From: an uncultured Sphingomonadales bacterium
GTDB lineage: Bacteria; Pseudomonadota; Alphaproteobacteria; Sphingomonadales; Sphingomonadaceae
Assembly: GCA_903821605.1 (NCBI GenBank)
Contig: CAIJLZ010000004.1
Span: 186,001 to 250,000, forward strand
Direction of reading: 5' to 3'
Length of the DNA stretch: 64,000 nucleotides
Below are positions 22,986 to 48,690 of this stretch, piece by piece; position 1 is the stretch's first letter; each line of letters begins with the position of its first letter. The position numbers and the translations under genes were made by a program. The notes below the pieces were generated by a model. It did no database searches. It had not been told where the DNA came from and was given only the letters and a program-made list of their open reading frames with translations.

Positions 22986-23104
22986 GGACGATGACCGATG
23001 TGTTTGTGGTGGGGCGTTGACGCGGCAATCAAATGTTCAGGGAGTGAATGGGGATGAGGCCCGCGAGCCCCAAATTCCTCCCTCTGCTTAAGGAACGCAA
23101 CATC

Positions 23105-25545: not shown

Positions 25546-26364
25546 TTAGCGATATTCCGGCCAGACCAGCGAGGCCTCGCGGCTGTCGAGCGCGACCGCA
25601 CCGCGAATGTCGAGCGCCTCGCGCGCTTCAGACACGCTCATGTGAAACACGTCCTCGTACTTCGCCATGAAGAAGGGGCCGGACTGTTCACCCACATCCA
25701 TGCCGTGCCGTATCGCCGTGAGCGCAGTGGGGAAGGATTGCTGATAGTGTAGGCCCGTGCGTGCCAGCACCCGGAGCGAGCCGAGCAGTTGCCCGGCATT
25801 GATATAGCCAACCAGTTCCGGATCGAGGAAGCGCGGGACGTTGCTCAGGCGCGCGTAATAGGGGACCAACTCGCCGAGGATGTCGAACCCGCCGCCGCAA
25901 AGGATGTGTTCGAGATCGTGCGTCTGTCCGCTACGCAGCGAATAATATTCGAACTGGCTCTTCGGTTCAAAACGCGGAACAATGTCGATCTCGAAATTAT
26001 TGTCGGCAAGATAGGTGCCGAACACATGGCCAAGTGAGCCGGGCGGATAGCCAAGCAGGTCCTTGATTGTGAAGGTGGAGGAAAAGCCCTTGCTGAACCA
26101 GCGATCCAGTTCGGGCCAACGCTTGCGTTCCTGCGTGAACAGCTCTTCAATCCGATCGAGTGGCAGAATGTCGAACAGGATCGGATAGAGCCGATGCGTG
26201 TCAAATGAAGTGGGTAAGTCTTTGCCGCTGCGCCGCAGAAAGGCTGTTGCCACCCATTCGCGCAGGCGCGGTTCGTTGAGATAGGCCGACGAGCTGATCA
26301 GGGTACTGCTTTCGGTCGTCCTCTTCTGGACGCCACGCGCCAGATAGGGAACATCTTCTACCAT
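25546..26364 (-). CDS. COQ4-like protein
   Basis: The 272-residue protein contains HDLEH and a glutamate 12 residues later (His149, Asp150, His153, Glu165), the HDxxHx11E metal-binding motif of COQ4. COQ4 takes part in ubiquinone synthesis and is linked to oxidative decarboxylation of the ring precursor. Here the gene stands 17 bases after the AtuA-like gene, not with ubiquinone genes, which points to a role in catabolism, for example on a ring carboxylic acid. That function is an inference. Confidence 0.8.
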   Translation of the reverse strand: MVEDVPYLARGVQKRTTESSTLISSSAYLNEPRLREWVATAFLRRSGKDLPTSFDTHRLYPILFDILPLDRIEELFTQERKRWPELDRWFSKGFSSTFTIKDLLGYPPGSLGHVFGTYLADNNFEIDIVPRFEPKSQFEYYSLRSGQTHDLEHILCGGGFDILGELVPYYARLSNVPRFLDPELVGYINAGQLLGSLRVLARTGLHYQQSFPTALTAIRHGMDVGEQSGPFFMAKYEDVFHMSVSEAREALDIRGAVALDSREASLVWPEYR

Positions 26365-26381
26365 TGTCTTCTACTCCCGTT

Positions 26382-28196
26382 TCAGGCCAGCTCGCGCGCC
26401 ATCGCGGCGGTGATCCGGACAGGCATTTCAAGCAGATGCTGGCCCATGCTCTTGGCCGCTGCATCGAAGCGGGGTGAAATATTGATGCCGCCGCCCTGTG
26501 CATCATGGACCACGAAATTGATGGCGTGCGGGCCGGGCGCTTCATAGGCATCGACCCGCCCCGTGGACGGATCGTCAAACAGGTGGCGGTACCAGCCAGC
26601 GACGGCCTGCGGCGTCAAACTGGCGCGGATATAGGGCAGATATTCGGGCTTGCGCGCGATGGCGGCGACGTTGAAGAGCCGCCCCTTGTCGCCGCTGCGG
26701 GCATAGGCTAGCCGGATGAGTGGCACTTCCACGGTGCCATCGACCGGCACCGGCCCCGCTTCTGCCCGCACGATGACTGCCGGGTCGAAGCCACCCTGCT
26801 TCGGCGCGGTGAAGGGAACATCCTTGCCATCAAGGCGCACATGCGCCGTCACCCGGTCGCGGTCGATTAGGCCGAGGAACATGTCGGTCAGCGGAAAGGC
26901 CCGCGGGGCAGCGATGATCGGTGCAATGGAGGTGCCGACCGCCATATTGAGGATCGCGTTGGTCTGCTCGCGGCCGAACATCAAGGCGGAAGTCATGTCC
27001 TCGTGATCAACGACGATCTTGAGCAGCACTTCACGCGGCGACAGGGGCTGTGCGCGCGGGCCATAAGCCGTTTCGGTGCCGATCACCTCGACATGCTTGG
27101 TCTTCCAGTCAGGCTGATTGCGTTCCACCAGCAGGCGACTGGTGCGTTCCAGCAGGGCATCGGCGGTGCGCTGCGCCTTGCGGGCGGCATCAATGCCGGA
27201 AATCGGGATCAGGGCGACCGAACGCCACCCTATACTGAACGTGGCGCAGATCTTGAGGCTCTCAGTCGGCGCATAACCCTTGGCACCTGTCACCTTCACC
27301 CGGTTCGGCCCGACCTGCTCCAGCTTAAGACCGCTAAAGTCGCATACGACATCCGGCACGATATAGGCTTGCGGGTCGCTGACTTCGTAGAGCAATTGTT
27401 CGGTCACGGTACCGACCGAAACCAGCCCGCCGGTATTGTCCGCCTTGGTAATGACGAATGTCCCATCGGCATGGCATTCACCCACCGGGAAGCCGATGTT
27501 CGCCCAATCGGGCACGCTTTCCCAATCGGTGAACAGGCCACCGCTCACTTGTGCGCCGCATTCCAGCAGGTGGCCCGCCGTGGTGCCCGCCGCAAGCAGG
27601 TCATAATCCTGCGGTCCCCAACCGAATTCGTGGATCAACGGCCCAAGCATCAGCGCGCTATCGACGACCCGCCCGGTAATGACCATATCCGCCCCGGCTG
27701 CCAGCGCGGCAGCGATCGGGAAAGCGCCAAGATAGGCGTTGACCGCGCCGAGGCCTTCATCCGGCAATGCCATGCCGTTGAACATATCGCGCAGGCCTTC
27801 GGCTCGCAGTTGTGGTGCCATGGCTTCGATATCGTCGCCCGTGACCGTGGCCACGCGGATTTCCAGTCCCATGTCGCGCCCACGCTGGCGGATCATCTCG
27901 GCTAGACCTTCGGGGTTCATGCCGCCGGCATTGGTGACGACTTTAATGTTCCGGGTCTTGAGTTCGGCGAGATAAGGGCCAACATGCAGGTTGACGAAAT
28001 CGGGCAGAAAACCTGAATTGGGGTCGGCCACCTTCATCTGGCGGAAAAGGCCCATCGCCCCTTCGCCAAGGTAATCGAAGGCAAGATAGTTGAGATCCGG
28101 CACCCGCAGCAATTGCGGCACTGCGATCACGCTGTCATTAAGCGCGCCACTGGCCCCACCGATCCGTACGATCTTTTCCTGACCTGAACCCGCCAT
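26382..28196 (-). CDS. AtuA-like (DUF1446) protein, acyclic terpene utilisation family
   Basis: The 604-residue protein starts with VRIGGASGALNDSVIAVPQL and contains NAGGMNPEGLAEMIRQRG and a C-terminal small domain with LIRLAYARSGDKG. This is the AtuA layout known from the acyclic terpene utilisation cluster of Pseudomonas, where its exact step is not fully defined. The open frame starts at 28277, but ATG 28196 follows GAGAGGAATG and starts at the conserved region. It forms a pair with the COQ4-like gene and is divergent from an XRE/MmyB-type regulator, which may control it. Confidence 0.88.
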   Translation of the reverse strand: MAGSGQEKIVRIGGASGALNDSVIAVPQLLRVPDLNYLAFDYLGEGAMGLFRQMKVADPNSGFLPDFVNLHVGPYLAELKTRNIKVVTNAGGMNPEGLAEMIRQRGRDMGLEIRVATVTGDDIEAMAPQLRAEGLRDMFNGMALPDEGLGAVNAYLGAFPIAAALAAGADMVITGRVVDSALMLGPLIHEFGWGPQDYDLLAAGTTAGHLLECGAQVSGGLFTDWESVPDWANIGFPVGECHADGTFVITKADNTGGLVSVGTVTEQLLYEVSDPQAYIVPDVVCDFSGLKLEQVGPNRVKVTGAKGYAPTESLKICATFSIGWRSVALIPISGIDAARKAQRTADALLERTSRLLVERNQPDWKTKHVEVIGTETAYGPRAQPLSPREVLLKIVVDHEDMTSALMFGREQTNAILNMAVGTSIAPIIAAPRAFPLTDMFLGLIDRDRVTAHVRLDGKDVPFTAPKQGGFDPAVIVRAEAGPVPVDGTVEVPLIRLAYARSGDKGRLFNVAAIARKPEYLPYIRASLTPQAVAGWYRHLFDDPSTGRVDAYEAPGPHAINFVVHDAQGGGINISPRFDAAAKSMGQHLLEMPVRITAAMARELA

Positions 28197-28326
28197 CTTG
28201 CATTCCTCTCTCGTCCAAGGCCGACCGCGGCCTGATGCCTGTTGATCTTGTTTTTGGCCGCCCGGCAAGCTGCTCATGGTCTTTTAGGGAGCAGTAAGGC
28301 ATAGGGGTACTAGGTAAGTTTATCCT

Positions 28327-29214
28327 ATGACTGAGAGTGATAGTATGAAGCGAAGCAATCCCGTCGATCCGCGCCACTGGCGGTCACAGGAGTTGGCGAC
28401 CTTCCTGCGTTCACGGCGGGAAAGGCTGACGCCAGACGCTGTTGGCCTCCCTTCGGGCGAGCGCCGACGCGCCAAGGGCCTGCGCCGCGAGGAGGTGGCA
28501 AGTTTGCTCGGCGTTTCGCCTTCATGGTACACGAAGCTGGAACAGGGCATTGCTGGTTCACCCTCGCCGCGCTTGCTTGGCCGGATTGCAGATGTGCTGC
28601 GCCTGTCCCGTGTCGAACAGATCCAGTTGCTGCGCCTTGGCCTTGGCGATGCGGAAGCGACCAATCCCATCGCGGTCGAGGAAATTCTGCCTCCCGTCCA
28701 AGCCATTATCGATGCGATGCACAATCTGCCCGCCATGGTCGTGCGCGCCTCTCATGCGGACTATGTGGCCTCTAACGCAGCCGCCAGCGCCCTGTTCGGC
28801 GATTTCAGGAAATTCGCGGGCAATGGCAATCAGCTCATTTCGCTATTCACCCACGAACGCGCCCGCGATTCCCTGCCGGACTGGGAAGAATCCGCGCGCC
28901 GCCAGCTCGCGATGTTCCGCGCCGCCTTCGCCCGCAACGTCCACGACCCGGATATGCGGCGCTTCGTTGCCGAACTCTCGGCGAAAAGTCGCGAATTTCG
29001 GGCGCTTTGGCAATGTTATGACCTGCCCTCCCATGGCGCGCACAAGCTGGAGTATCGCCATGCCGACGGCCAGACTTACCAATTCCAGATGGTGACCTTT
29101 TTTGCGGATTCCGATTGCCAATACCGGTTGGAAGTCTTTTATCCCGAAGACGAACGGACCCGTCAGTGGCTGGCAGCCCTGATGGCGCAAGAAGGCGAAG
29201 CGTCCACGCATTGA
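28327..29214 (+). CDS. XRE-family regulator with MmyB-type ligand-binding domain
   Basis: The 295-residue protein has an N-terminal helix-turn-helix (LRREEVASLLGVSPSWYTKL, residues about 53-72) and a C-terminal PAS-like MmyB domain (residues about 120-290). Such regulators often act next to a divergent dehydrogenase or catabolic operon and respond to a small hydrophobic ligand such as a fatty acid. Here the divergent partner is the AtuA/COQ4-like pair. The start at 28327 has an imperfect dyad (TAGG ... CCTA, 28311-28327) immediately upstream; the ATG at 28345 is an alternative. Confidence 0.9.
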   Translation: MTESDSMKRSNPVDPRHWRSQELATFLRSRRERLTPDAVGLPSGERRRAKGLRREEVASLLGVSPSWYTKLEQGIAGSPSPRLLGRIADVLRLSRVEQIQLLRLGLGDAEATNPIAVEEILPPVQAIIDAMHNLPAMVVRASHADYVASNAAASALFGDFRKFAGNGNQLISLFTHERARDSLPDWEESARRQLAMFRAAFARNVHDPDMRRFVAELSAKSREFRALWQCYDLPSHGAHKLEYRHADGQTYQFQMVTFFADSDCQYRLEVFYPEDERTRQWLAALMAQEGEASTH

Positions 29215-29324: not shown

Positions 29325-29843
29325 CTATCCCGCTAGGGTGCCGGCATTGCGTCGTCGCCAAGCAATCCGGACCAGATCCGCGCCGACTTCGGCCTCAAGA
29401 TATAAGAGATCGCCCGCAAAGCCATAACGACGCGGCTGGTCGATGGTAGCAAAATTAGGATACCATGCCCCGGTCACATGATGGGTCACCACCCCCGCCG
29501 CCGCGTCCACACTAAACGTACCGAAATATCCGCTATAGGCGCGCAGCGACCGACCGAAGTCCGCATCCGGCACATCAAACATGGTCGGCGCATCCAGCAA
29601 GGGGCGGTTCGCCATGGATAGGTGACAGCTCATGTGGCCATCGGCGCTGTACATGATGAGGCCGATGGCATCGCGCCCGAACGGATGGCTTTCGGAGCCG
29701 TCGGGGTGATAGCTTGTCCAACACTCCAATTCCCACCCACCAATCAGGGCGGCAATTGCTTGCGCTTGCGTCATGTTCGGTGGAGAAAGCGGTGTCGGCA
29801 GCCCGGTGCGCCCACTGGTGGCCGCTGTGGTCGATGCGCTCAT
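29325..29843 (-). CDS. Lipocalin-like domain protein
   Basis: The 172-residue protein has the wording of the bacterial lipocalin-like family: IGGWELECWTSYHPDGS, then GLIMYSADGHMSCHLS and a strand near GAWYPNF. Such proteins bind small hydrophobic molecules or act as putative isomerases. No signal peptide is seen, so it probably acts in the cytoplasm. Its ATG at 29843 lies one base from the stop of the MFS transporter gene, so it is translationally coupled to the transporter and may accept or modify the imported compound. Confidence 0.78.
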   Translation of the reverse strand: MSASTTAATSGRTGLPTPLSPPNMTQAQAIAALIGGWELECWTSYHPDGSESHPFGRDAIGLIMYSADGHMSCHLSMANRPLLDAPTMFDVPDADFGRSLRAYSGYFGTFSVDAAAGVVTHHVTGAWYPNFATIDQPRRYGFAGDLLYLEAEVGADLVRIAWRRRNAGTLAG

Positions 29844-29844
29844 G

Positions 29845-31116
29845 TCATGCCCCTGTTGTCTGGCGCGTGGATATGCTCTGCCCCACCCCTTGCACCGGCA
29901 AGATCAGCAACCCGGCAAGGATCACGGCGGGTAGAAACGTCTGGAACGCGGACTGGTAACTGCCGGACGCATCATAGAGCGCGCCCACCAGTTGCAGTGC
30001 GCCCAGATTGAATGGCAGCATCGCGGTTGACATCAGCCCCATCGCCCGGCCCATTTGGGCGAGACCGAAGCGCCTGCCGACGATCACCGTCCACAATGGT
30101 ATCGCACCACCGACTGCCGAACCCGCCAGCAACGCGACGGCGAAGAGCACCGGATAGGATGGCTGCGCCAGCAATGTGCCCAGCAGCACCACGTTCAGCG
30201 CGACGACGACAAGGTACAGCCAGCGCGGGTCGGCGCGATCGGACAAAGCGCCGAGCACCAGCTTACCCACCACTGCGCCGCCCGACACTGCCGAAACGAG
30301 TGTCGCCCCTTGGCCCAAGGTGAAGCCCTGGTCCGTCGCATAGGCAACAAGGCACGATAACAGCGCCCCATTTGTTCCCATCACCAGGCCCACTGCCCCC
30401 GCGATCAGCCAGAAATCGCGCTGCCGCCACGCGCCCGGTTCCACCATTGGGGCCGCTTCGCGTTCGTCCGCGCGGTGCGCGGGCGTTTGTGTGGCACCGT
30501 CCGCAGGCAGAACCCTCAGCGCCAGCAAAAGGATCAGCACCCCGCCACCAAGTCCATAAATCGCCACGGCGCTGCGCCAATCACTGTTGTCGATCAGCAG
30601 GGCGAGGATGGGCACGACCACCACGCCGCCGCTCGACATGGCAACCGAGGATATTCCCAATGCAAGCCCCCGGCGTTCATGGAACCAGCGGGACACGAGC
30701 GTGGAGGCCACCACCGGCCCCAATGCGGATGCACCGGGAGCGAGCAGGAAAAATGTGGCGAGTAGTGCTTCAGTGACAGTGGTGGCAGCGGCGATTGCCG
30801 CCCAGCCGGCCGCGAACAGCACGGCCCCTGCCATGATCACCAGTCGCCCTGAAACCCGGTCGAGCGCCCGGCCCACCAATGGTGCGAAAATGGACATGCC
30901 GACCAGCGCGATCATCAGCCCACGGTTCACTTGGACGCGCTGCAGGCCGAAATCGGCGGCCAGCGGTTTTAGCAGAACCGAAAAGCCATAGGATATGCTG
31001 CCGATCGCCACCATCTGCGCGAAAAAGAGCAGTGCAAGGGCCTGCCACCGTCGCAAGTTTGCTCCGGCTCCGTGAAATGGATCGTCTGCCGCCAGGGCGC
31101 GCGTAACTGCGGTCAT
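29845..31116 (-). CDS. MFS transporter (monocarboxylate/oxalate-formate-like)
   Basis: The 423-residue membrane protein shows about 12 hydrophobic helices in the usual 6+6 layout, with the loop motif GRALDRVSGR after helix 2 and a long loop near the middle. The start at 31116 follows GGAGAG. It lies 23 bases after the TauD-type dioxygenase and is coupled to the lipocalin-like gene. In this gene run it is the best candidate for moving the desulfated (or still sulfated) organic acid across the inner membrane. The substrate is inferred only. Confidence 0.9.
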   Translation of the reverse strand: MTAVTRALAADDPFHGAGANLRRWQALALLFFAQMVAIGSISYGFSVLLKPLAADFGLQRVQVNRGLMIALVGMSIFAPLVGRALDRVSGRLVIMAGAVLFAAGWAAIAAATTVTEALLATFFLLAPGASALGPVVASTLVSRWFHERRGLALGISSVAMSSGGVVVVPILALLIDNSDWRSAVAIYGLGGGVLILLLALRVLPADGATQTPAHRADEREAAPMVEPGAWRQRDFWLIAGAVGLVMGTNGALLSCLVAYATDQGFTLGQGATLVSAVSGGAVVGKLVLGALSDRADPRWLYLVVVALNVVLLGTLLAQPSYPVLFAVALLAGSAVGGAIPLWTVIVGRRFGLAQMGRAMGLMSTAMLPFNLGALQLVGALYDASGSYQSAFQTFLPAVILAGLLILPVQGVGQSISTRQTTGA

Positions 31117-31139
31117 GCTCGGCTCTCCATTCTTGCCTG

Positions 31140-32006
31140 TCAGGGACAGGCTTTTTTCGGGCGATCACCCTCGACCGTTACCCGTTCAAGATGCCGCCAA
31201 CCGGTATAATCGGCAACACCGTAATGCTGGGTGGCACGATTATCCCAAATTGCAATCGAGCCCACTTCCCAGCGGAACCGCACCTGATATTCCGGGCGTT
31301 TCACTTCGTCGAGCAACACGCGCAACAAAGCGGCGCTTTCCTCGTCCGAAACGCCTAGAATATGGCTGGTGAATCCACTGTTGACGTATAGCACCCGCTC
31401 GCCCGTTTCCGGGTGGAGGCTCACCACGGGGTGCGTCTGCACCGGGTGTTGGGTCAGGAATCCGGCCTGCTTTTCCGGGGTGTCGAGATGGCGAATGAAG
31501 GTAAGCAGCCCATTATGTGCTGCATCGAGCGTTTCGATCCGCTGCTTCAACTGATCGTCGAGCCCGTTATAGGCCGCGACCATGTTCGACCATAATGTGT
31601 CCCCGCCTAGTGGCGGCAATTCGTGCGCCATCAAGACCGAGATGGCGGAAGGCTTGGCGCGGAAGGTGGTGTCACTGTGCCAGTGATCGGCGGCAGGCGC
31701 CGTAGCCCCTTCCTTCATACCGCCCAAGGAACGCAGGACCAGCATCTCCGGGAATTCAGGATGGCCAGCAAGCGGATGGACTTCCAGCGTCCCAAAGCGG
31801 CGCCCGAATGCCACATGCTGCGCACGGGTCGGCGTTTGGTTGTGCAGGAATACCACCTTGAACCGCAGCAATGCCTGATGGATCAGTGCGAATTCCTGAT
31901 CCGTGACATCGGCAATGTCCAACCCCGCGATCTCGGCGCCAATCAGCGGCTGGATCGGGTTGATCGTGACATGGGGTAAGTCTGCCAGCAGTTTATCAAG
32001 GGTCAT
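31140..32006 (-). CDS. TauD/TfdA-family 2-oxoglutarate-dependent dioxygenase
   Basis: The 288-residue enzyme has the iron facial triad of the family: His110 and Asp112 in HWHSDTTF, His261 in RATQHYG, and an arginine (about Arg275) for 2-oxoglutarate. The family includes taurine dioxygenase and the alkylsulfatase AtsK, which frees sulfate from alkyl sulfates by hydroxylation. Its place between a sulfatase and a transporter gene makes an oxidative sulfoester- or side-chain-cleaving role plausible. Strong RBS AGGAGAGGAAC precedes ATG 32006. Confidence 0.9.
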   Translation of the reverse strand: MTLDKLLADLPHVTINPIQPLIGAEIAGLDIADVTDQEFALIHQALLRFKVVFLHNQTPTRAQHVAFGRRFGTLEVHPLAGHPEFPEMLVLRSLGGMKEGATAPAADHWHSDTTFRAKPSAISVLMAHELPPLGGDTLWSNMVAAYNGLDDQLKQRIETLDAAHNGLLTFIRHLDTPEKQAGFLTQHPVQTHPVVSLHPETGERVLYVNSGFTSHILGVSDEESAALLRVLLDEVKRPEYQVRFRWEVGSIAIWDNRATQHYGVADYTGWRHLERVTVEGDRPKKACP

Positions 32007-32076
32007 GGTCGTTCCTCTCCTATCATCCTATCGTGTTACTGGTCCGTTGCTCTTCTTGTTCGGTGCGGCAAAGCGG

Positions 32077-34374
32077 TTAGTGCCGGGTAATCGTGACGCG
32101 ATTCACTTGTCCATCGGTGAAAGGGAAGCCGTGGCTTGTTCCTGCTGGATAGTCGCCCACCGGCGAGCCGGTATCGACCCCCACGCTGAAACCATCATCC
32201 AGCGCAAACGCCCCAATCGGACTTGCGGGCAGATCTTGCGAACCCGCAGGCTGGTCGTCCACGAATAAATGGATCGTGGCGGGCTTCCCGTATCCGCCAT
32301 AGTTGTCGAAATCGAAACGCAGCCGGTGCTGGCCGGGCGATAGCGGGGCGGTACCTGCAAGTTGTGCGGTCGCAAGATTGAACAGGCGATAGGTCAGCGC
32401 CGGAATGCCGTCGGGGCGAAGATAGACCGACCAGCCACCGGCTCCCCCGCCCACGGCAGCCACCACGCCCTGCGCGCCTTGTGCCAATGTCAGATCAGCG
32501 GTCATGGACCAAGACTGGCCCGCCGTGCGCGGCAGCGCGGATTCGGGAATGGAGCGCACGCCTTGCTCAAAGGTCATACTGGCGCGCCCTTGCGCCAGCG
32601 ACGGCAGCCCTTTTTGCGGCATCACATTGGCCAGCGGGAGCACCAGATTGCGTGCGGCCTCCGTGTCGAACAACGCTTTCAGTTCCGCCAGCTTTGCCGG
32701 ATGGCGAGCCGCCAGATCGCGGCTTTGCGAGAAATCCTTCGTCAGGTTGTACAGTTCCCAGACATCGTCTTCGAACTTATTCTGGCTCATGTTGGTCGGA
32801 GTCCACGGCTGCCGCCCGTGAAAGGCCGAAGCCATCCAGCCATGGTGATAGATCGCCCGGTTGCCGAATACTTCGAAATATTGAGTGGTGTGGCGCTCGG
32901 CCGCCTTATCGTCGGGTATCGTGTAGAGGAGGCTGGTGCCGTCCATCGACTTTTGCGCGATGCCGTCGATCTGCGCCGGTGCCGCGATGCCGACCGCGTC
33001 AAGGATGGTCGGCGCCACGTCGTTTACATGGCTGAACTGGCTTCGCAGATGGCCTGCCTCGGTGCCGACCCGCTGGGGCCAACTCATCACCATGCCATTG
33101 CGCGTCGCGCCGAGGTGGGAGGCGACCGTCTTTGCCCAGCGAAATGGCGTGTTCATGGCCCAAGCCCAAGCCGAAGGATAATGGCTGTTCGTGTCCGTGC
33201 CGCCCATCGTCTCGATTTGGGCAAGGCGCTGCGCATCGGTTTCCAAGCCCAACTGATAAGCGCCGATATAGTTGTTCGACCCGGAAATGCCGCCTTCCGG
33301 GCTCGCTCCGTTATCGCCCACCAAGTAAAACACCAAGGTGTTGTCATATTCGCCACTGGCGCGCAATTCATCCAGCAGGCGTCCGACTTGCGCATCGCTA
33401 TGGGCAAGGAAACCGGCATAGACTTCCATCAGCCGCGCCGCGACGCGCTTTTGATCGGGGGCGAGCGATGACCAGGCAGGCAACTGCGGCAAGCGCGGCG
33501 TCAATTTGGTGTTGGCCGGGATGATCCCCAGACGCTTCTGGCGCGCGAAACTCTCCTCGCGCATCGCGTCCCAGCCAGCATCGAACCGGCCCTTGAAGCG
33601 ATCGATCCATTCCTGCGGCGCCTGTAACGGCGCATGGGTCGCACCCGGCGCAAAATAGAGGAAGGCCGGGCGGTTCGGCTCCAGCGCGTTCTGCGTCTTC
33701 AGCCAGGAAATGGCCTTGTCAGCGATGTCCTGGGTAAAGTGATAGCCCGCCCCCGTCGGCGCATCGACGCTACGGGTGCCGTCATACACAGTGGGGGCGA
33801 ACTGGTCGGCCTCGCCGCCTTGAAAGCCATAGAATTTCTCAAAGCCTTGACCGGTTGGCCAGCGATCGAACGGGCCATTGGGGGTGACTTCGGAATCGGG
33901 CGTCTGGTGCCACTTGCCGAACGCGGCGGTGTTATAGCCAGCGCGGCGCAGGATTTCCGCAATGCTGATGGCGTCCTTGGTCTGGAAGCCACTGTAGCCA
34001 GGGCGAGAATCGGCGGAATTCATCACCGCGCCCATGTGGACGGCGTGGGGATTGCGCCCGGTCAGCAGCGAAGCGCGCGTGGGCGAACAGATCGCGGTGG
34101 TGTGGAAGCGATTGAAGCGCAGCCCTTCGCCAGCCAGCTTATCGAGCGCAGGCGTGGGAATGGGGCCGCCGAAAGCAGAGGTCGCGCCAAAGCCCACATC
34201 GTCGAGCATGATGACAATGATGTTGGGCGCGCCTTTGGGCGCTTGCTGGCGTACCGGAGAGGCGGTGTCGAAGGTGGAGGGCGCCGTCATGGCGGCAGGA
34301 TTTGCCGACTGGGCCGCAAGGGGCGCGGCGGCAAGTGCACAAAAGGCGGTCCCGATCGGGTGCTTCCAGTGCAT
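32077..34374 (-). CDS. Periplasmic arylsulfatase (type I, formylglycine-dependent) no. 1
   Basis: The 765-residue protein has a short signal peptide (HPIGTAFCALAAAPLAAQS) and the type I sulfatase motif CSPTRASLLTGRN with Cys96, which the formylglycine-generating enzyme converts into the catalytic aldehyde. LDDVGFG (Asp58/Asp59) provides calcium ligands. A C-terminal stretch of about 130 residues (from SWSMTADLTLAQG) looks like an added beta-sandwich. It is closely similar to sulfatase no. 2 at 37615, so the two look like duplicates on opposite sides of the TonB receptor gene. Expected to release sulfate from an organic sulfate ester in the periplasm. Confidence 0.93.
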   Translation of the reverse strand: MHWKHPIGTAFCALAAAPLAAQSANPAAMTAPSTFDTASPVRQQAPKGAPNIIVIMLDDVGFGATSAFGGPIPTPALDKLAGEGLRFNRFHTTAICSPTRASLLTGRNPHAVHMGAVMNSADSRPGYSGFQTKDAISIAEILRRAGYNTAAFGKWHQTPDSEVTPNGPFDRWPTGQGFEKFYGFQGGEADQFAPTVYDGTRSVDAPTGAGYHFTQDIADKAISWLKTQNALEPNRPAFLYFAPGATHAPLQAPQEWIDRFKGRFDAGWDAMREESFARQKRLGIIPANTKLTPRLPQLPAWSSLAPDQKRVAARLMEVYAGFLAHSDAQVGRLLDELRASGEYDNTLVFYLVGDNGASPEGGISGSNNYIGAYQLGLETDAQRLAQIETMGGTDTNSHYPSAWAWAMNTPFRWAKTVASHLGATRNGMVMSWPQRVGTEAGHLRSQFSHVNDVAPTILDAVGIAAPAQIDGIAQKSMDGTSLLYTIPDDKAAERHTTQYFEVFGNRAIYHHGWMASAFHGRQPWTPTNMSQNKFEDDVWELYNLTKDFSQSRDLAARHPAKLAELKALFDTEAARNLVLPLANVMPQKGLPSLAQGRASMTFEQGVRSIPESALPRTAGQSWSMTADLTLAQGAQGVVAAVGGGAGGWSVYLRPDGIPALTYRLFNLATAQLAGTAPLSPGQHRLRFDFDNYGGYGKPATIHLFVDDQPAGSQDLPASPIGAFALDDGFSVGVDTGSPVGDYPAGTSHGFPFTDGQVNRVTITRH

Positions 34375-34442
34375 CTTTCCCCCAACTCGAAAAATGCAGG
34401 ACGGGCGTTATGCTCTCATGGCCCTGCTTGTCTGTTGTGCAG

Positions 34443-34485
34443 AAAAAAGTTTCCCCCCGCCTGCCGGAGCAGAACGGAGGGAAAC
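34443..34485 (-). terminator. Intrinsic terminator between TonB receptor and sulfatase no. 1
   Basis: On the minus strand a stem (10 of 11 pairs, 34449-34459 with 34475-34485) is followed by six T residues. It lies 16 bases after the TonB receptor stop and 68 bases before the sulfatase start. It would reduce transcription into the sulfatase operon, or separate the two transcripts. Confidence 0.8.
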
Positions 34486-34501
34486 AATACTCAGCTTGGT
34501 A

Positions 34502-37066
34502 TTAGCTACCGAAGTTGTAGCGAATACGCATGCCGTACATCCGCGGTTCGCCAAAGATCTGCGACTGCGTGCCGACCTGATTGTAAACACCCGAGTTCGA
34601 GATGCTGTACGTTTTGTTGGTCAGGTTGGTGCCGAACACGCTGACGTCCAGATTCTGGCCCAGTGCGTTCTTCCAGTCGAGCGAGGCGTTAAGCAGGCCA
34701 TAGGCCGCCAAGGAGCTGCCCGGTTCCCAGGTCGAGCCGTCCGGGAACTTTTCGAGAGACGGACCCGACTGGTGACGGGCATCAGTCCACGCGTAGTTCA
34801 CGAACAGGCTGACCTGGCCGAAGCTGTCCGCGGTCGGGATCGCGAGGCGACCATAAACCGAGAAGATATTCGGCGACAGATACTGCATCGGAATGCAGGT
34901 CAGGTCAGGCGTAGACGTCTTCTCTCCCTGCGAACCGTTTGCGGAATTGCAGTCCGAGATCGGCTGCGGCGCGTTATATTTGAACGACTTGTACTTGGCA
35001 TCGTTATGGCTGTAGGTGCCGCCGATTTCGAGCATGTCGACCGGCTTGAACATGGCTTCGACTTCCACGCCGCGGATCCGAGCCGAGGCGACGCTGAGCG
35101 TCGCCGCCCCGCTTTTGTTGGTCGTCGGATTATAGTCAGCCAGACCACGCTGAATGTTGCTATAGTCCATGTTGAAGGCATTGACGTTCAACCGCACCGG
35201 CCGGCCGGCCACCTTGAAGTCAGACTTGAAGCCAGCTTCATAGTCGGTGACATATTCGGGCGTGAATGTCGCGAATACCTGGTTCACCGCATAGCCGTTG
35301 AAGCCACCTGCCTTATAGCCGCGCGATACCTTGCCATATACCAGCAGGTTATTGATCGGGCGATAATCAAGGCCAATGGTCCAGTTGGGCGCAGAGCTCT
35401 TCAGGTGACCTTCATAACGGCACCCCGGATCGGTGGCCGCATTGTAAAGGTTGCCGGCATTCGCACGGGTAACGGTGGCGCCGTTGAATGAGCAGCTGAC
35501 GGTGTCGGCACCGGTACCCTTATAGAAGGCCGGCGCATAGTTCACTGCAAAGCCATCGATCTTGTCCCACGTGTAGCGATAACCACCGGTGAGGCGGACG
35601 CGGTCGAGGGCCGGGGTCAGAGCGCCAAGGTCCAGGGTCGCCTGTGCAAACAGGGCCTTGGATTCGTTGGTCATCGCGAGTGTGCGATAACCAGCGGCGG
35701 CCGTGTTGGCGACTTCACCCTGAAGGGCACTAACGGTCGTCGAATAGTCCTCCATTTTGCCGCCCGGGCTCTGCTTCGAATAGAAGCCACCCGTTGTGAC
35801 CGTCAGCTTGTCATCAAGAAACGAGCCCTGAAGCTGCAATTCTTCGGTGAAGAGCTTGTAATAGTCCTTCGGTGCCGTGCGGCTCCAGATGGTGTTGCCG
35901 GTGTTGTTGAGGTTGCTCAACGTGCCGTCCTGGTCCGATGCGTAGAACGACTTGACCTTGGCGTAGCTGATGATGTTACGCAGCTTCAGCCCGTCGGTCA
36001 GCTTGACGTCGGTCGAATTGTTGATGCCCCAAGTGGTGGTCTTGGAGAAGTCATCAATACCATGGGCAACGGTACGAACGCCACGATTCTGCTGATCGGT
36101 ATAATAGCTTTGCAGCGTCGAACAATCGGTAGGTCCCGTGCCGGCGCCACAGAAGTTGAAGCCTGGGCTAAGCGCGCCGAGCGGGAGGGTAGCTCCCCCA
36201 CCAATCGGAATCGGCCGCTGAGCAAGGCCGACGAGATACGGGGTGTTGAGCGCGATGGGCACAATGCCCGTGCCGTTGTTGCTGGAATAGCCATAATAGC
36301 CCATGGTGTAGCTGCTGATGGCATCCGTCGGATCCCACTGCACGCCGATACGGCCCATGCGGGTGTGGATATTATCGCGATCTTTGTTCCAGTTGATGTC
36401 CTTCGTAAAGCCGTCACGATCGCGCGAAGCGCCAACCAGACGAACCTTGAGGGTGTCAGACAGCGGAATGTTTACGACCGCTTCCAGCTCAGCCAGATTG
36501 TAGTTGCCGAAGCTGCCGGAAATATGCCCTTCCAGCTTGTCGGTCGGCTTGGCAGCCGTCAGCAAGATCGCGCCGCCAGTCGTGTTGCGACCGAACAGCG
36601 TGCCCTGCACGCCGGACAGTGCCTGCACGCTCTGCAGGTCGACGAAGTTGCCCGGGCCGCCCTGGGTGGACAGCGTGAAGCCGATCGGCAGCGGGATTTC
36701 GTTCATGTACATCACGACGCCCGGTGCGCCCTGGAACGAAGCGCCCTGGCCGCGGATCGACGGCGTCATCACTTCGCGCGAAGCCTGACCGTTCGACTGC
36801 ACGAGGAGCGAAGGCACCTGGCTCATCAGACCCATCACGCTGGTGACGCCACGTTCACGCAGCGCATCAGGGCTGAGTGCGGTGATGACGATCGGAACGT
36901 CCTGCGCCTTTTCTTCGCGCCGCTGAGCGGTCACGACAATTTCATCAAAGCTCGGACCGCTTGTTGCGGCGTCCTGCGCCATCGCCATGCCTGTCGTCCC
37001 AAAGACGGCCAGCGCGCTGGTGGCAAGCAGCGCCTTCCTCATAAAATATTCAGTATTGGTAGTCAT
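34502..37066 (-). CDS. TonB-dependent outer-membrane receptor of the sulfatase locus
   Basis: The 854-residue protein has a signal peptide (MRKALLATSALAVFGTTGMA near residues 9-28), a TonB box EIVVTAQRREEK, a plug domain (VQALSGVQGTLFGRN) and a large barrel ending in an aromatic-containing strand. The start at 37066 follows a perfect AGGAGG at good spacing. It is flanked by sulfatase genes on both sides, the typical setting of a receptor for a sulfated compound. It diverges from sulfatase no. 2 across a 548-base control region. Confidence 0.95.
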   Translation of the reverse strand: MTTNTEYFMRKALLATSALAVFGTTGMAMAQDAATSGPSFDEIVVTAQRREEKAQDVPIVITALSPDALRERGVTSVMGLMSQVPSLLVQSNGQASREVMTPSIRGQGASFQGAPGVVMYMNEIPLPIGFTLSTQGGPGNFVDLQSVQALSGVQGTLFGRNTTGGAILLTAAKPTDKLEGHISGSFGNYNLAELEAVVNIPLSDTLKVRLVGASRDRDGFTKDINWNKDRDNIHTRMGRIGVQWDPTDAISSYTMGYYGYSSNNGTGIVPIALNTPYLVGLAQRPIPIGGGATLPLGALSPGFNFCGAGTGPTDCSTLQSYYTDQQNRGVRTVAHGIDDFSKTTTWGINNSTDVKLTDGLKLRNIISYAKVKSFYASDQDGTLSNLNNTGNTIWSRTAPKDYYKLFTEELQLQGSFLDDKLTVTTGGFYSKQSPGGKMEDYSTTVSALQGEVANTAAAGYRTLAMTNESKALFAQATLDLGALTPALDRVRLTGGYRYTWDKIDGFAVNYAPAFYKGTGADTVSCSFNGATVTRANAGNLYNAATDPGCRYEGHLKSSAPNWTIGLDYRPINNLLVYGKVSRGYKAGGFNGYAVNQVFATFTPEYVTDYEAGFKSDFKVAGRPVRLNVNAFNMDYSNIQRGLADYNPTTNKSGAATLSVASARIRGVEVEAMFKPVDMLEIGGTYSHNDAKYKSFKYNAPQPISDCNSANGSQGEKTSTPDLTCIPMQYLSPNIFSVYGRLAIPTADSFGQVSLFVNYAWTDARHQSGPSLEKFPDGSTWEPGSSLAAYGLLNASLDWKNALGQNLDVSVFGTNLTNKTYSISNSGVYNQVGTQSQIFGEPRMYGMRIRYNFGS

Positions 37067-37614
37067 AACCCCTCCTATTTGGATGCGTGAAAGTTAGTAA
37101 ATCGCGCGCCATGCGCCGGGTGCGACCTTCATTTCAAAGGTTCGCCGGACCGAATTGCGCGCAGCAAAAAGAGATGCCGGATTTACGGATCGAATCATCT
37201 GCATCCTCACTCTCCCTAAGCTCCGGTCTCTCTTCCAAGTTTGGGCAAAGCCCTTGATTCCAAGGAAAAATAGCCGGAAGTTTGCGTGCCCTTTTGCGTC
37301 GAATTCACTGGCGCAATTAAGGCAGTTGCCATGCTAACTCACTTGCAAGCGCTTTGCAACGCATTCTGCGGGTGGATATTGCACGTTTTCGTAAAAGCGT
37401 GCAGAGAACTGGAAGGAAAAATGGCAATGTCCCATGGGACGTCACATAAATGCGGAATTTTTGCCGGATGAATTTTCGGCGGCCTGCTGCCGTGGGCGGG
37501 GGCAATCATTCGGTGATCTGTTAGTATAGTGTTCGCAAGGCAGGGCCGGTCAATATCATGAGCGCGCGCCACGCCGGGTAATGGGATGCCAGCAAAAAAG
37601 AAGAGGATGCGCAC
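37067..37614. promoter_or_regulatory. Divergent control region with several dyads (548 bases without a gene)
   Basis: This gap between the TonB receptor and sulfatase no. 2 holds no convincing gene. Dyads seen are TTGCAA-GCGCT-TTGCAA at 37343-37359 (a layout typical of LacI/GalR-type sites), a hairpin GCACG...CGTGC at 37381-37402, and the perfect 12-base palindrome GTCCCATGGGAC at 37429-37440. Promoters for both genes must lie here, and the dyads are candidate operators. Small open frames in the gap have no ribosome-binding site of note and no family features. Confidence 0.55.
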
Positions 37615-39927
37615 TTGAATTTCAAAGGCTTGTTGCAGGGCGGCGTCGCAGCTTTTACCCTCGTCGGCTTGGTTGCGGGTCCCGCTATGGCGCAGGCTGG
37701 GCCCGACACGGTTTCGCCGGTTCCCGTTTCCAATACCGTGGATTCACCGCTGCGGATCAAGGCGCCCAAAGGCGCGCCGAACGTGGTTGTGGTGCTGCTC
37801 GACGATGTGGGCTTTGGTGCGACGGCGAGTTTTGGCGGCCTGATCGCCACGCCCGCGCTGGACAAGCTGGCCAGCGAAGGGCTGCGCTATAACCGCTTCC
37901 ACACCACGTCGATCTGCTCGCCCACCCGCGCGTCGCTGCTGACCGGGCGCAATCCCCACGCAGTTCACATGGGCGCAGTGATGAACACGGCGGACGACCG
38001 GCCCGGCTATTCCGGCTTCCAGACCAAAGACGCGGTCGGCATCGCCGAACTGCTGCGCCGCGCCGGTTACAACACCGCCGCATTCGGCAAGTGGCACCAG
38101 ACGCCCGATTCCGAAACTTCACCCAATGGTCCATTCAACCGGTGGCCGACCGGGCAGGGCTTTGAGCGTTTTTACGGCTTTATCGGCGGTGAAACCGACC
38201 AGTTCGAGCCGAGCCTTTACGAGGGCACCCGCCAAATTCTGCTGCCCCAGCGTCCCGGTTATCACCTCACCGAAGACCTGGCCGACCAAGCAATCGGCTG
38301 GCTGAACAGCCAACATGCGGTAGAGCCTGACCGGCCTGCGTTCCTCTATTTCGCCCCCGGCGCGACCCATGCGCCGCTCCAGCCGCCGCGTGAATGGGTA
38401 GAGCGATATAAGGGCCAGTTCGACCAAGGCTGGGACAAGCTGCGCGAACAGATTTTCGCGCGCCAGAAGAAGCTCGGCGTTATCCCGCGCGACGCGGTGC
38501 TAACCCCGCGCGATCCGCGTCTCCCGGCATGGTCTTCGCTCAATGCCGATCAGCGCAAGTTGGCCTCGCGGCTGATGGAAATCTACGCTGCATTTCTGGC
38601 CCATACCGATGCGCAAGTTGGCCGCTTGGCCGAGGCGCTGAAGGCCAATGGCGAATTCGACAACACCCTGTTCATCTATGTCGTCGGCGATAATGGCGGC
38701 AGTCCGGAAGGGACAGTCGCGGGCAGTGTCAACTATGTGGCCAACTATCAGGGCATGCCGGAAACCGATGCATTGATACAGGCCCAGTTCGACAAGCTGG
38801 GCGGGCCCGGTACCAACACCCATTATCCGGCAGGCTGGGCATGGGCGATGAACACCCCGTTCCAGTGGACCAAGACGGTGGCGTCGCATCTGGGCGGCAC
38901 GCGCAATGGCATGATCGTGACGTGGCCTAAGCGGATCGGCGCGGCTGCGGGCGGATTGCGCAGCCAATTTGGGCACGTCAACGATGTTACGCCAACCATC
39001 CTCGAAGCCGTCGGCATGGCCGCGCCCGAGGAAGTGGACGGCGTCAAGCAAGCGCCGATGGACGGCACCAGCCTGATCTATAGCTTTGCCGATCCGAAGG
39101 CGGCGGAGCGCCACACCACCCAATATTTCGAAATCTTCGGCAATCGTGCCATTTATCACGATGGCTGGATGGCTTCCGCTTTCCACGGCCGGGTGCCGTG
39201 GATCATGGGCATACCGCCGGTGCAAAAGTTCGAGGACGACAAATGGGAGTTGTACGACCTCAGCAAGGACTTCTCGCAAAGCCGGGATTTGGCCGCGCGC
39301 TACCCGGCGAAGCTGGCCGAACTCAAGGCCGTGTTCGACAAGGAAGCGGCCCGCAACAATGTGCTGCCCTTGTCGGAGATTCGCTTCAATAGCGGGCTAC
39401 CGTCACTTTCGGCGGGGAAGACGAGCGCCAGCTACAAGATGGGCGCAACCGGGATCCCCGAAACAGCCTTGCCGCGCTTTGCTGGCAAGTCATGGGCCGT
39501 GGAAGCCAGCGTGACGTCAGGCGCGGCCACGCAAGGTGTCGTGGCGGCGGTGGGCGGCAGCGCCGGCGGCTGGTCGCTGTTCATCCGCCCCGACGGTAAG
39601 CCGGCCGCCACCTACCGGCTGTTCAACATCCAAAGCTTCGAATTCGCAGGGGCGGCACCGCTCACCCCGGGTGCGCACAAGCTGACCCTTGATTTCACCA
39701 GCGATGGGGGCTTCGGGAAGGGGGGCATGTTGCGCTTCATGGTCGATGGCCAGCAAGCGGACATCGGCCATTTGGTGGCCTCTCCTATCGCCTCATTCTC
39801 GCTCGATGACGGCTTTGGGGTGGGGGTCGATGCCGGCTCGATGGTCGGCCCTTATCCGGCTGAGCCTCAGATGGGCTTCGCCTTTCGCAGCGGCCGGATC
39901 GATGAAGTCGCCATTCGGACGCGCTGA
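37615..39927 (+). CDS. Periplasmic arylsulfatase (type I) no. 2
   Basis: The 770-residue protein has a signal peptide (FTLVGLVAGPAMAQ), calcium-ligand LDDVGFG and the sulfatase motif CSPTRASLLTGRN with Cys101. The start codon is TTG at 37615, supported by the signal peptide and an AGAGGA about nine bases upstream. The segment between residues 90 and 270 is nearly word for word that of sulfatase no. 1, with the same C-terminal beta-rich tail. It is followed by sulfatase no. 3 and the activating enzyme. Expected to desulfate an organic sulfate ester in the periplasm. Confidence 0.92.
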   Translation: MNFKGLLQGGVAAFTLVGLVAGPAMAQAGPDTVSPVPVSNTVDSPLRIKAPKGAPNVVVVLLDDVGFGATASFGGLIATPALDKLASEGLRYNRFHTTSICSPTRASLLTGRNPHAVHMGAVMNTADDRPGYSGFQTKDAVGIAELLRRAGYNTAAFGKWHQTPDSETSPNGPFNRWPTGQGFERFYGFIGGETDQFEPSLYEGTRQILLPQRPGYHLTEDLADQAIGWLNSQHAVEPDRPAFLYFAPGATHAPLQPPREWVERYKGQFDQGWDKLREQIFARQKKLGVIPRDAVLTPRDPRLPAWSSLNADQRKLASRLMEIYAAFLAHTDAQVGRLAEALKANGEFDNTLFIYVVGDNGGSPEGTVAGSVNYVANYQGMPETDALIQAQFDKLGGPGTNTHYPAGWAWAMNTPFQWTKTVASHLGGTRNGMIVTWPKRIGAAAGGLRSQFGHVNDVTPTILEAVGMAAPEEVDGVKQAPMDGTSLIYSFADPKAAERHTTQYFEIFGNRAIYHDGWMASAFHGRVPWIMGIPPVQKFEDDKWELYDLSKDFSQSRDLAARYPAKLAELKAVFDKEAARNNVLPLSEIRFNSGLPSLSAGKTSASYKMGATGIPETALPRFAGKSWAVEASVTSGAATQGVVAAVGGSAGGWSLFIRPDGKPAATYRLFNIQSFEFAGAAPLTPGAHKLTLDFTSDGGFGKGGMLRFMVDGQQADIGHLVASPIASFSLDDGFGVGVDAGSMVGPYPAEPQMGFAFRSGRIDEVAIRTR

Positions 39928-39996
39928 ACCACTTTGCGGCCCTCCACGATGCGCGGTTGTGGAGGGCCGATGCCAACATAGACACAGGATAGCCTT

Positions 39997-42375
39997 ATGA
40001 ACCTCTTCCACACGACGGCGGCAAGCACGTTGGCTCTTTTGTTGGCGCAAGGTGCGGTGCAGGCGCAATCGACGCTCCCCCTCCCGACAGAACCGTTCGC
40101 GGGCAGCATTGGCAAGACCTATGCCGATTCCACGCCGGCTTTCCCCAAGCCGGTTCAGGCCCCCGAGGGCGCGCCTAATGTGTTCCTGATCCTGGGCGAT
40201 GACATCGGTTTTGGCGCGGCCTCCACCTTTGGCGGGCCGGTGCCCACCCCGAACCTTGACCGATTGGCCGCCCGCGGGCTGGTCTACAACCGGTTCCACA
40301 CCACGGCGATGTGTTCGCCCACCCGCGCCGCGATGCTGACAGGCCGTAACCACCATGCGGTTGGCAATGGCATCGTCGCCAATCTTTCGACGGGTTATCC
40401 CGGCTACAACAATCTGATGCCGCGCAGCGCCGCGACGGTGGCCGAAGTGCTGAAACAGAACGGCTATAATACCGCGATGTTCGGCAAGCACCACAACGCA
40501 CCCGAAGCGCAAGTGTCTGCCGCAGGGCCGTTCGACCTGTGGCCGACTGGGCTTGGCTTTGAACATTTCTTCGGCTTCATGGGCGCCGAAACCAACCAGT
40601 TCAGCCCGGCGCTCTATCGCGGTACCGCCGCGATCCCCACGCTGAAGGACGGGGTGCTGGATAAGGCGCTGGCCGACGAAACGATCAACTGGATCCATAA
40701 CCAGCAGGCGGCCGCGCCGAACAAGCCGTTCTTCGCCTATTTGGCCACCGGCTCGGCTCATGCGCCCTTGCAGGCCCCGGCAGACTGGATCGCGCGGTTC
40801 AAGGGCAAGTTCGATGCGGGCTATGATGTGATCGAGGCCGAAACCGTGCGGCGGCAAAAGCAGATGGGCCTGATTCCTGCAAATGCGCGACCCGCGCCGC
40901 GCCCCAAGGGGATCGATGCCTGGAAGGATTTGTCGCCAGCCCGCAAGCAGATCAATGCCCGTTACATGGAAGTCTATGCGGCGATGCTGTCCTATCAGGA
41001 CAACCAGATCGGCCGTATCCTCGATGAACTGGATCGGATGGGCGAAGCCGACAACACGCTGGTCATGTGGATCACTGGCGATAATGGTGCGGCCGCCGAA
41101 GCCGGTGCGGACGGCGCGAACAACCCCATGGCGCATTTCGCCAATGGTCTTGAAGAAGACGAGGCCACATTGCTGGCCAATCTCGACAAGGTGGGCGGGC
41201 CAGACGCAGTGGCCAATTATGGCTTCGGCTGGGTCTGGGCGGCGAACGCACCGTTTCCCTATGCCAAGCAGATCGCCTCGCATCTTGGCGGTACGCGCAA
41301 CGGCATGGTCGTGTCTTGGCCCGCCCGGATCAAGGAGCGCGGCATACGGAGCCAATTCGGCCATGTGACCGATATCATGCCGACCATTCTTGAGTCGGCA
41401 GGCATCGCGGCACCCAATATGGTCAGTGGCGCCCCGCAACAGCCGATTGATGGGGTCAGCCTTGGCTATAGCTTCAATGCCCCCACTGCACCGGAACGGC
41501 ACACCACCCAATATTTCGAAATGATGGGCAATCGCGCGATTTACGACAATGGCTGGCTGGCAAGCTCCACGCCGATCAACGCGCCTTGGAACCCACTGAA
41601 GGGCGTGGCAACGCCAGCGGACTATAAGTGGGAATTGTACGATCTGACCCGCGATTTTGCGCAGACGCGTGACCTTGCGGCCAAGCGGCCGGACAAGCTG
41701 GCGCAAATGCAGATCCTGTTCGATACCGAAGCCAAGCGCAACAATGTCTATCCGCTGGACGACCGGCTGAAGATGGAGCGCTTCCTTGCTGCGGCGGCCA
41801 TGGCTCCGAAGCGTTCCCATTATACCTATTGGGGTGCCGGGATCAGTACCCCGGTGCTGCTGGCCGCGCCGCTGGTGACGCGCAGCTTCCGCATCACCGC
41901 TGATATCGACACCGCCCAACCCGCGCAGACCGCTCCCATTCTCGCCGCAGGTAGTAAGTTCGGCGGTTGGTCATTCTACCTCGATCAGGGGCGACCAGTC
42001 GCGTTTGTGGCGGCATCGCAATTTGCCAAGGATCAGTTTCAGGTCGCCGCGACAGCGCCTGTCAAGCCGGGGGCAACGAGGCTGGTGTTCGATTTCCATT
42101 ATGATGGCGGGGTTAACGCCGGCGGCGAAATGATTGTCAGCGCCAACGGCACCGAAATCGCCCGTGGCCGCCTGCCTGCGACCTTTACCAAATATCCGGA
42201 ATTGACCGACACGTTGGACATCGGCCTTGATGCCGACACCCCGGTGACATCCGCCTATCCGTTGGGCAGCGAATTTGCCGGAACGATTGCGCGGATTGAT
42301 GTCGAGGTCGGCCCGGCGGGCAAACCGGGCGCTGCCCCTGCCTCTGCCCCTGTTAGCGCGCATGCCGGGCAATGA
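39997..42375 (+). CDS. Periplasmic arylsulfatase (type I) no. 3
   Basis: The 792-residue protein has a signal peptide (TLALLLAQGAVQAQ), GDDIGFG and the motif CSPTRAAMLTGRN with Cys106. It is related to but clearly diverged from nos. 1 and 2 (for example MLTGRNHHAVGNG in place of LLTGRNPHAVHMG), so it may take a different sulfate position or ring. It lies 69 bases after sulfatase no. 2, and its stop overlaps the start of the activating enzyme by four bases. Confidence 0.93.
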   Translation: MNLFHTTAASTLALLLAQGAVQAQSTLPLPTEPFAGSIGKTYADSTPAFPKPVQAPEGAPNVFLILGDDIGFGAASTFGGPVPTPNLDRLAARGLVYNRFHTTAMCSPTRAAMLTGRNHHAVGNGIVANLSTGYPGYNNLMPRSAATVAEVLKQNGYNTAMFGKHHNAPEAQVSAAGPFDLWPTGLGFEHFFGFMGAETNQFSPALYRGTAAIPTLKDGVLDKALADETINWIHNQQAAAPNKPFFAYLATGSAHAPLQAPADWIARFKGKFDAGYDVIEAETVRRQKQMGLIPANARPAPRPKGIDAWKDLSPARKQINARYMEVYAAMLSYQDNQIGRILDELDRMGEADNTLVMWITGDNGAAAEAGADGANNPMAHFANGLEEDEATLLANLDKVGGPDAVANYGFGWVWAANAPFPYAKQIASHLGGTRNGMVVSWPARIKERGIRSQFGHVTDIMPTILESAGIAAPNMVSGAPQQPIDGVSLGYSFNAPTAPERHTTQYFEMMGNRAIYDNGWLASSTPINAPWNPLKGVATPADYKWELYDLTRDFAQTRDLAAKRPDKLAQMQILFDTEAKRNNVYPLDDRLKMERFLAAAAMAPKRSHYTYWGAGISTPVLLAAPLVTRSFRITADIDTAQPAQTAPILAAGSKFGGWSFYLDQGRPVAFVAASQFAKDQFQVAATAPVKPGATRLVFDFHYDGGVNAGGEMIVSANGTEIARGRLPATFTKYPELTDTLDIGLDADTPVTSAYPLGSEFAGTIARIDVEVGPAGKPGAAPASAPVSAHAGQ

Positions 42376-46626: not shown

Positions 46627-46628
46627 GA

Positions 46629-48646: not shown

Positions 48647-48690
48647 CCCGCTCCTCTTATGTCTTCGGGGGTTGCTTCCCCGCGATTATG

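Follow-up and report, generated by a model that had tools for sequence, protein, structure and literature searches.

What would a receptor, a sulfatase, a dioxygenase, a carrier and a lipocalin-like protein, encoded by five adjacent genes read in one direction, be doing together in a sphingomonad? The genes occupy positions 29325–37066 of a 64,000-nucleotide stretch of DNA, hereafter the window, from an uncultured Sphingomonadales bacterium (contig CAIJLZ010000004.1, positions 186,001 to 250,000), and an earlier note made from that sequence had proposed that they act together in taking up a substrate, desulfating it in the periplasm and carrying it across the inner membrane. The anatomy of the locus and the comparative data presented here agree with that proposal. 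With slightly better than even confidence, the five genes can be read as one arm of a divergent cassette for the uptake and desulfation of sulfated steroids. The link of the cassette to steroids is well supported, resting on its position, on co-occurrence across the family and on the induction of probable counterparts in Caenibius tardaugens; the substrate and the reaction of the TauD-type dioxygenase are predictions from sequence.

All five open reading frames lie on the minus strand, and a check against Pfam agrees with the families that the earlier note had given them. First in the run is TBDR1 (34502–37066), a TonB-dependent outer-membrane receptor (TBDR) with PF00593 and PF07715. It is followed by SULF1 (32077–34374), a formylglycine (FGly) sulfatase with 221 bits to PF00884 (cut-off 25); a TauD-family Fe(II)/2-oxoglutarate dioxygenase (31140–32006) with 217 bits to PF02668 (cut-off 27); a carrier of the major facilitator superfamily (MFS; 29845–31116; PF07690, 162 bits); and LIPO5 (29325–29843; PF13924, 94 bits), a lipocalin-like protein of the Lipocalin_5 family. 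The carrier distantly resembles the lactate/oxalate-formate group, every NCBIfam match being under its cut-off. The codon-position GC of all five genes is what coding sequence would give, least clearly so for the lipocalin-like gene (GC3 0.66, GC2 0.55). The gaps of 70, 23 and 1 base reported earlier are correct, and to these can be added the 127 bases between TBDR1 and SULF1, which had gone unmentioned. Transcription of the run as a single message is plausible. A consensus scan listed no minus-strand terminator-like sites in the gaps of the run, but it says little because it returned fewer sites than shuffled sequence (11 versus 13.9). More telling is what recurs elsewhere. In all seven members of the TauD clade described below, the window included, the gene immediately downstream of TauD and in the same orientation encodes an MFS carrier; this gene is homologous to the window MFS in six of the seven (again counting the window), C. 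tardaugens having a different carrier. Moreover, TauD, a sulfatase and a TBDR1 relative sit together within 9 kb in C. tardaugens. Since both arrangements recur, the five-gene run is more than a chance assembly.

The run is also only part of the story, in that it forms one arm of a larger divergent unit whose other arm, at 37615–43313 on the plus strand, the earlier note had missed. This second arm begins with SULF2 (37615–39927), an FGly sulfatase 65% identical to SULF1, and continues with SULF3 (39997–42375), a third such enzyme with 46% identity to SULF1; both carry PF00884 and the CSPTR motif. The end of SULF3 is overlapped by four bases by the gene for a formylglycine-generating enzyme (FGE; 42372–43313; PF03781, 257.6 bits). 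When aligned with human SUMF1, this FGE keeps the cysteine pair GGSHLCAPSYCQRYR, the active-site pair of such enzymes. CSPTR and the DD, GK(W/H)H, HAPLQ, DNG and K motifs occur in all three cassette sulfatases, which pass the motif test for family S1, and each has by eye a signal-peptide-like start. The best solved chain for SULF1 is PAS (1hdh), in an alignment reaching residue 566 of 765, with about 200 residues lying beyond. Four PF00884 genes occur in the host genome (2.67 Mb, 19 contigs), three of them in the window and the fourth, also with CSPTR, on contig C12.

A further feature of the locus, overlooked when steroid sulfates were named earlier only as an assay substrate, is its surroundings. 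Judging by profile matches, the cassette sits inside a steroid catabolic region. Genes matching HsaF, HsaG, a hydratase and HsaD-, HsaA- and HsaC-like proteins, then IpdA-, IpdB-, EchA- and IpdC-like proteins and acyl-CoA dehydrogenases, extend over 47195–62962. HsaF and HsaG exceed their NCBIfam cut-offs, while the HsaA-like (368 of 450), HsaC-like (219 of 450), HsaD-like (163 of 400) and hydratase (351 of 409) matches fall under theirs. The run that we take to be IpdA, IpdB, EchA and IpdC includes an IpdB-like gene that shares 82% identity with a gene at 2.915 Mb in C. tardaugens. Five KshA_C matches occur in the host genome, four of them on the contig of the window: two strong ones over cut-off (192.6 and 197 bits) lie 2.2 and 28 kb before the window, and two more, with weaker scores, are found 35 and 43 kb past its end. 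FAD proteins of the window give only weak matches to delta-1-dehydrogenase models, far under the cut-offs. Overall, the 9,10-seco steroid gene set looks complete, though several members miss equivalog cut-offs.

If the cassette serves steroid catabolism, its genes would be expected to travel with that pathway, and a panel of 298 genomes of the family (own genome included, with Sphingobium, Sphingomonas and Croceicoccus species among them) bears on this point. IpdB, taken as the steroid marker at a preset limit, is present in 40 of the 298 and hence in 39 of the 297 others. The comparison covers TBDR1, LIPO5, SULF1/2, SULF3 and TauD, and for long queries the searches score only the best three candidates per genome. 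At a preset limit of E<=1e-150, TBDR1 relatives (44–71% identity) were found in 8 of the 297 other genomes, and all eight are IpdB-positive. The same is true of the lipocalin-like protein (preset E<=1e-20), whose relatives occur in seven of the 297. Among the matches listed, SULF1/2 relatives of at least 56% identity and SULF3 relatives of at least 60% are each found in seven other genomes, again with IpdB in 7/7, and TauD relatives of at least 57% in five, with IpdB in 5/5. In union, relatives of cassette genes occur in 13 genomes, every one IpdB-positive. As a control, carriers of any related sulfatase have IpdB in 21 of 59 cases, above the background of 39/297. The association of TauD with IpdB holds solely for the close clade, because at a looser E<=1e-60 only 10 of 56 matching genomes have IpdB, own included (9 of 55 others). 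None of the counted relatives occurs in 26 of the 39 IpdB genomes, and the cassette is therefore an extra, outside the core pathway.

Published expression data from C. tardaugens point the same way. When cells on cholate were compared with cells on testosterone by RNA sequencing, 56 of 3982 genes were reported as induced (PMC12882949), among them EGO55_04770, annotated as a taurine dioxygenase, the arylsulfatase gene EGO55_09215 and the TBDR gene EGO55_09220. The authors' explanation is that EGO55_04770 uses taurine from taurine-conjugated bile acids and that EGO55_09215 desulfates sulfated bile acids (PMC12882949). Of the six PF02668 genes in C. tardaugens, the one corresponding to tag 04770 was sought by counting crude gene calls, with a reductase assumed to be EGO55_04915 and a ferredoxin assumed to be EGO55_04875 as reference points. 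The TauD-clade member at 1.040 Mb lies 29 calls before the reductase, where 29 tags are expected; the only other nearby TauD gene, 50 calls before it, fits less well. The counterpart of the window TauD (57% identity) is thus probably EGO55_04770. Likewise, a SULF3 relative at 1.993 Mb (55%) is followed by a TBDR gene, matching the expected order of EGO55_09215 and EGO55_09220.

The dioxygenase deserves separate attention. In a tree of 66 rows, from which the second C. tardaugens TauD (a long row) was left out, the window protein falls in a separate clade of seven (support 100/97), apart both from the AtsK clade and from the TauD proteins of Escherichia coli and Pseudomonas putida. Its other members come from Croceicoccus estronivorus, Sphingobium estronivorans, C. 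tardaugens and three further genomes. PMC7793797 describes C. tardaugens and C. estronivorus (under the name Altererythrobacter) as degrading estrogens, and it reports an estrogen degradation cluster for S. estronivorans. The iron triad and the 2-oxoglutarate arginine are present as H110, D112, H261 and R271, invariant in a 38-row alignment. None of the seven clade members has lost the triad, either arginine or the sulfo-binding histidine, but neither has any of the 66 rows, and these residues for that reason say little about the substrate. The residues that bind the amine of taurine in E. coli TauD, Y73, D94 and N95 (PMC3675115), are another matter: in all seven clade members these positions hold A/S, A/S and A. 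All three original residues occur in only 3 of the 66 rows, those of the two characterised TauDs and of a protein from Phenylobacterium. The iron-binding aspartate is followed by a threonine in every one of the 15 rows that make up the clade and its sister clade; none of the 51 others has it, most of them carrying valine there. In addition, the protein scores 254.4 bits against the NCBIfam equivalog cut-off of 313 for taurine dioxygenase. Its AlphaFold model (pLDDT 94.5) has the TauD fold, with Z 39.4 to E. coli TauD as the best match and 35.1 to AtsK, values that leave the substrate undecided; the structure comparison failed to separate TauD from AtsK or PlaO1. Taken together, the label taurine dioxygenase is probably wrong for this clade, and taurine appears the least likely substrate of the window enzyme.

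The sister clade of eight (support 100/99) offers a precedent for a second desulfation route. In all seven sphingomonad genomes examined, its member has as tandem neighbour another TauD-family gene, whose product falls with AtsK in the tree and, for the SYK-6 copy, scores 392 bits to AtsK; a sulfatase stands next to the tandem in 5/7 and an FGE in 2/7. This recurring set of TauD-like and AtsK-type genes, usually accompanied by a TBDR and a sulfatase and in some cases by an FGE, looks like an organosulfate scavenging operon. The earlier suggestion of two desulfation routes in one cassette, one of them AtsK-like, is plausible, although the window TauD itself falls outside the AtsK clade. Each route would have its own compartment, since by eye the sulfatases have signal-peptide-like starts and the TauD-type protein, like the lipocalin-like one, has none.

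From these parts a sequence of events can be proposed. TBDR1 would bring a sulfated steroid across the outer membrane, and the exported sulfatases, once activated by FGE, would hydrolyse aryl and accessible alkyl sulfate esters outside the inner membrane. The MFS carrier is predicted to transport inward either the product or the still-sulfated anion. In the cytosol, the TauD-type enzyme would oxidise the sulfo-bearing carbon with Fe(II), O2 and 2-oxoglutarate, after which a secondary alkyl sulfate would split into ketone and sulfate. The lipocalin-like protein may bind a hydrophobic intermediate, and the freed steroid would then pass into the adjacent 9,10-seco pathway. A narrower proposal, which we put forward tentatively and consider rather unlikely, is that the TauD clade is a steroid-dedicated dioxygenase that would turn secondary alkyl steroid sulfates, such as the 3-sulfates of dehydroepiandrosterone, cholesterol or bile acids, into 3-ketosteroids in one step.

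Several points weigh against reading the cassette as a system for sulfated steroids. Its action on them is a prediction from its genes. Rv3406, a relative of AtsK, is reported to have only low activity on sulfated steroids (PMC3675115), and cholate has no sulfo group to remove, which means that induction of the TauD gene by it does not show desulfation. The sulfo-binding histidine and arginine, being kept throughout the tree, are not specific to the clade; nor is the loss of the taurine-amine set, missing from 63/66 rows, which speaks against taurine without marking these seven proteins. As to the co-occurrence, the cut-offs for SULF1/2, SULF3 and TauD were placed in a gap after the lists had been inspected, and several panel genomes share a genus. 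The sister TauD clade is itself IpdB-positive in 4/7 genomes, and catabolically rich genomes would therefore explain part of the enrichment; a Fisher test of 13/13 versus 4/7 gives P 0.03 for groups that are not independent, three genomes (G011, G107 and G139) falling in both. Finally, only C. tardaugens, of the five other genomes in the TauD clade, groups TauD with a sulfatase and a TBDR1 relative, and in the rest the cassette homologues are mostly far apart.

Such scatter is what would be expected if the divergent arms and the lipocalin-like gene were chance neighbours that do not cooperate, and relatives of LIPO5 keep other company elsewhere, with a short-chain dehydrogenase within 2 kb in 4/5 places examined. 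This explanation is nonetheless improbable given the one-base and 23-base gaps and the pairings that recur in other genomes, both that of TauD with MFS and that of TBDR1 with a sulfatase (no more than 4 kb apart at 3 of the 10 sites inspected, of which two are in C. tardaugens and one is in genome G071). A more serious, if still unlikely, competitor is general sulfur scavenging from many organosulfates under sulfate limitation, with the location in a steroid region being incidental. It draws on the company kept by the sister clade in SYK-6 and other sphingomonads, on the reported scavenging of sulfate by Rv3406 (PMC3675115), and on the raised IpdB frequency among carriers of any related sulfatase. 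It sits poorly with the confinement of five separately tested cassette genes to IpdB genomes. Moreover, the C. tardaugens experiment used M63 minimal medium, which supplied ammonium sulfate as well as 1 mM magnesium sulfate (PMC12882949), so sulfur starvation is a poor explanation for the cholate induction of the probable TauD counterpart.

The remaining alternatives concern the dioxygenase. That it is a true taurine dioxygenase acting on taurine freed from conjugated bile acids, which is the proposal made in PMC12882949, would suit the cholate induction of EGO55_04770, the best structural match and the retained sulfo-binding residues. The replacement of all three amine-binding residues throughout the clade, the missed equivalog cut-off and the separate position in the tree make it quite improbable. 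That the enzyme instead acts on a sulfur-free steroid carboxylate, for instance by hydroxylating the side chain of a bile acid or an acid from ring cleavage, with the same histidine and arginine holding the carboxylate, is a less strained idea and yet an unlikely one. Induction by unconjugated cholate would fit it, RdpA and AAD-1, which are relatives in sequence and structure, use carboxylate substrates, and the anion-binding residues are a feature of the family at large; on the other side stand the neighbouring sulfatases and FGE and the pairing of the sister clade with an AtsK-type protein. The two main candidates for the reaction of the TauD-type enzyme are oxidative desulfation, favoured by the sister clade and the neighbours, and oxidation of a steroid carboxylate. 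For the cassette as a whole, uptake and desulfation of sulfated steroids is the reading we prefer.

Other features surround the cassette. The 548 bases between TBDR1 and SULF2 (37067–37614) form a possible shared control region, in which a promoter scan fell under the shuffled mean and repeats were short, such scans being uninformative. A candidate regulator, of the XRE type with an MmyB-like ligand domain (28327–29214, plus strand; PF13560/PF17765), is convergent with the run and closes a group of Coq4-like, AtuA and regulator genes at 25546–29214. In genome G084, relatives of the regulator (55%), TBDR1 (41%), AtuA (71%) and Coq4 (70%) sit together, and the regulator may therefore control both sets. 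Also close to the cassette, at 21354–25420, are a thiamine pyrophosphate (TPP) enzyme matching acetolactate-synthase-like chains and a membrane pyrroloquinoline quinone (PQQ) dehydrogenase matching the glucose/quinate dehydrogenase family; both also occur within about 10 kb of TauD–MFS in genomes G133 and G107. They were considered as pathway members and no convincing reaction scheme emerged. A protein at 43348–44013 has no Pfam family at E<=0.001, nor does one at 57214–58017, whose relatives occur in 40/298 genomes (own included). One open reading frame at 8412–9212 combines EthD and SnoaL_4 domains, with more SnoaL_4 proteins at 19653–20147 and 46093–46782; these are possibly steroid dehydratase-like. 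A second pair of HsaC-like (41%) and HsaA-like (48%) genes is found on the contig ahead of the window, at about 154.5–156.7 kb.

Relatives outside the window add some further observations. At 0.844 Mb in C. tardaugens, SULF3 relatives have next to them another TBDR1 relative whose coding sequence is divided between two frames, so that it is either a broken gene or a sequencing error. Among plasmid records, a DNA search with window positions 30000–42000 gave three weak matches, and protein searches gave 73 records for SULF1, all under 60% and the best in Sphingobium Tom strains, and nine for TauD, all under 46%. The plasmid pTomMM15b of Sphingobium sp. TomMM15, typed as conjugative, carries a 57% sulfatase relative together with genes for a TBDR, a beta-glucosidase and, by annotation, a bile-acid 7-alpha-dehydratase; another plasmid with a SULF1 relative has no obvious steroid neighbours.

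Much of the chemistry proposed here has known models, since AtsK-type and FGly-type desulfation and steroid clusters with TBDR uptake have all been described. With the alkylsulfodioxygenases AtsK and Rv3406 (SulfAtlas S2), the window TauD shares the fold, the iron and 2-oxoglutarate residues, the sulfo-binding histidine and arginine and the lack of taurine-amine residues; it differs in its clade, in having Thr113 where AtsK has valine, and in its steroid setting. The TauDs of E. coli and P. putida KT2440 likewise share its fold and its iron and 2-oxoglutarate residues, and differ in the three respects that tell against taurine. PAS/AtsA, the arylsulfatase of Pseudomonas aeruginosa (S1_4), has the CxPxR motif and surrounding catalytic motifs of SULF1, which exceeds it in length by about 230 residues and starts with what resembles a signal peptide. 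The closest parallel is EGO55_04770/09215/09220 of C. tardaugens, whose genes are far apart there and for which the available part of the paper reports expression only (PMC12882949). The edc and SD clusters of that species (PMC7793797, PMC6895838) combine steroid ring degradation with TBDR uptake by EdcT, and the words sulfatase, TauD and taurine are absent from both main texts. A 2026 paper already suspected an arylsulfatase in bile-salt use. What is new is the joint cassette in a steroid region, the confinement of the tested genes to the steroid genomes of the panel, and a TauD clade that is probably misnamed; among openly licensed literature, no paper describing the cassette or its TauD clade was found.

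Few genes were found to have been proposed in the literature for opening steroid sulfate conjugates in steroid-degrading bacteria. The analysis yields candidate genes, a co-occurrence test that spans 298 genomes and a pointed claim that one enzyme is probably misannotated. If the TauD clade is indeed dedicated to steroid sulfates, a single TauD-type step would replace a sulfatase and a 3-hydroxysteroid dehydrogenase, and taurine dioxygenase annotations in steroid degraders would be wrong. Estrogens in wastewater are listed as arriving partly as sulfates (table in PMC12507874), and if the cassette acts as proposed, its genes could mark the removal of conjugated hormones there.

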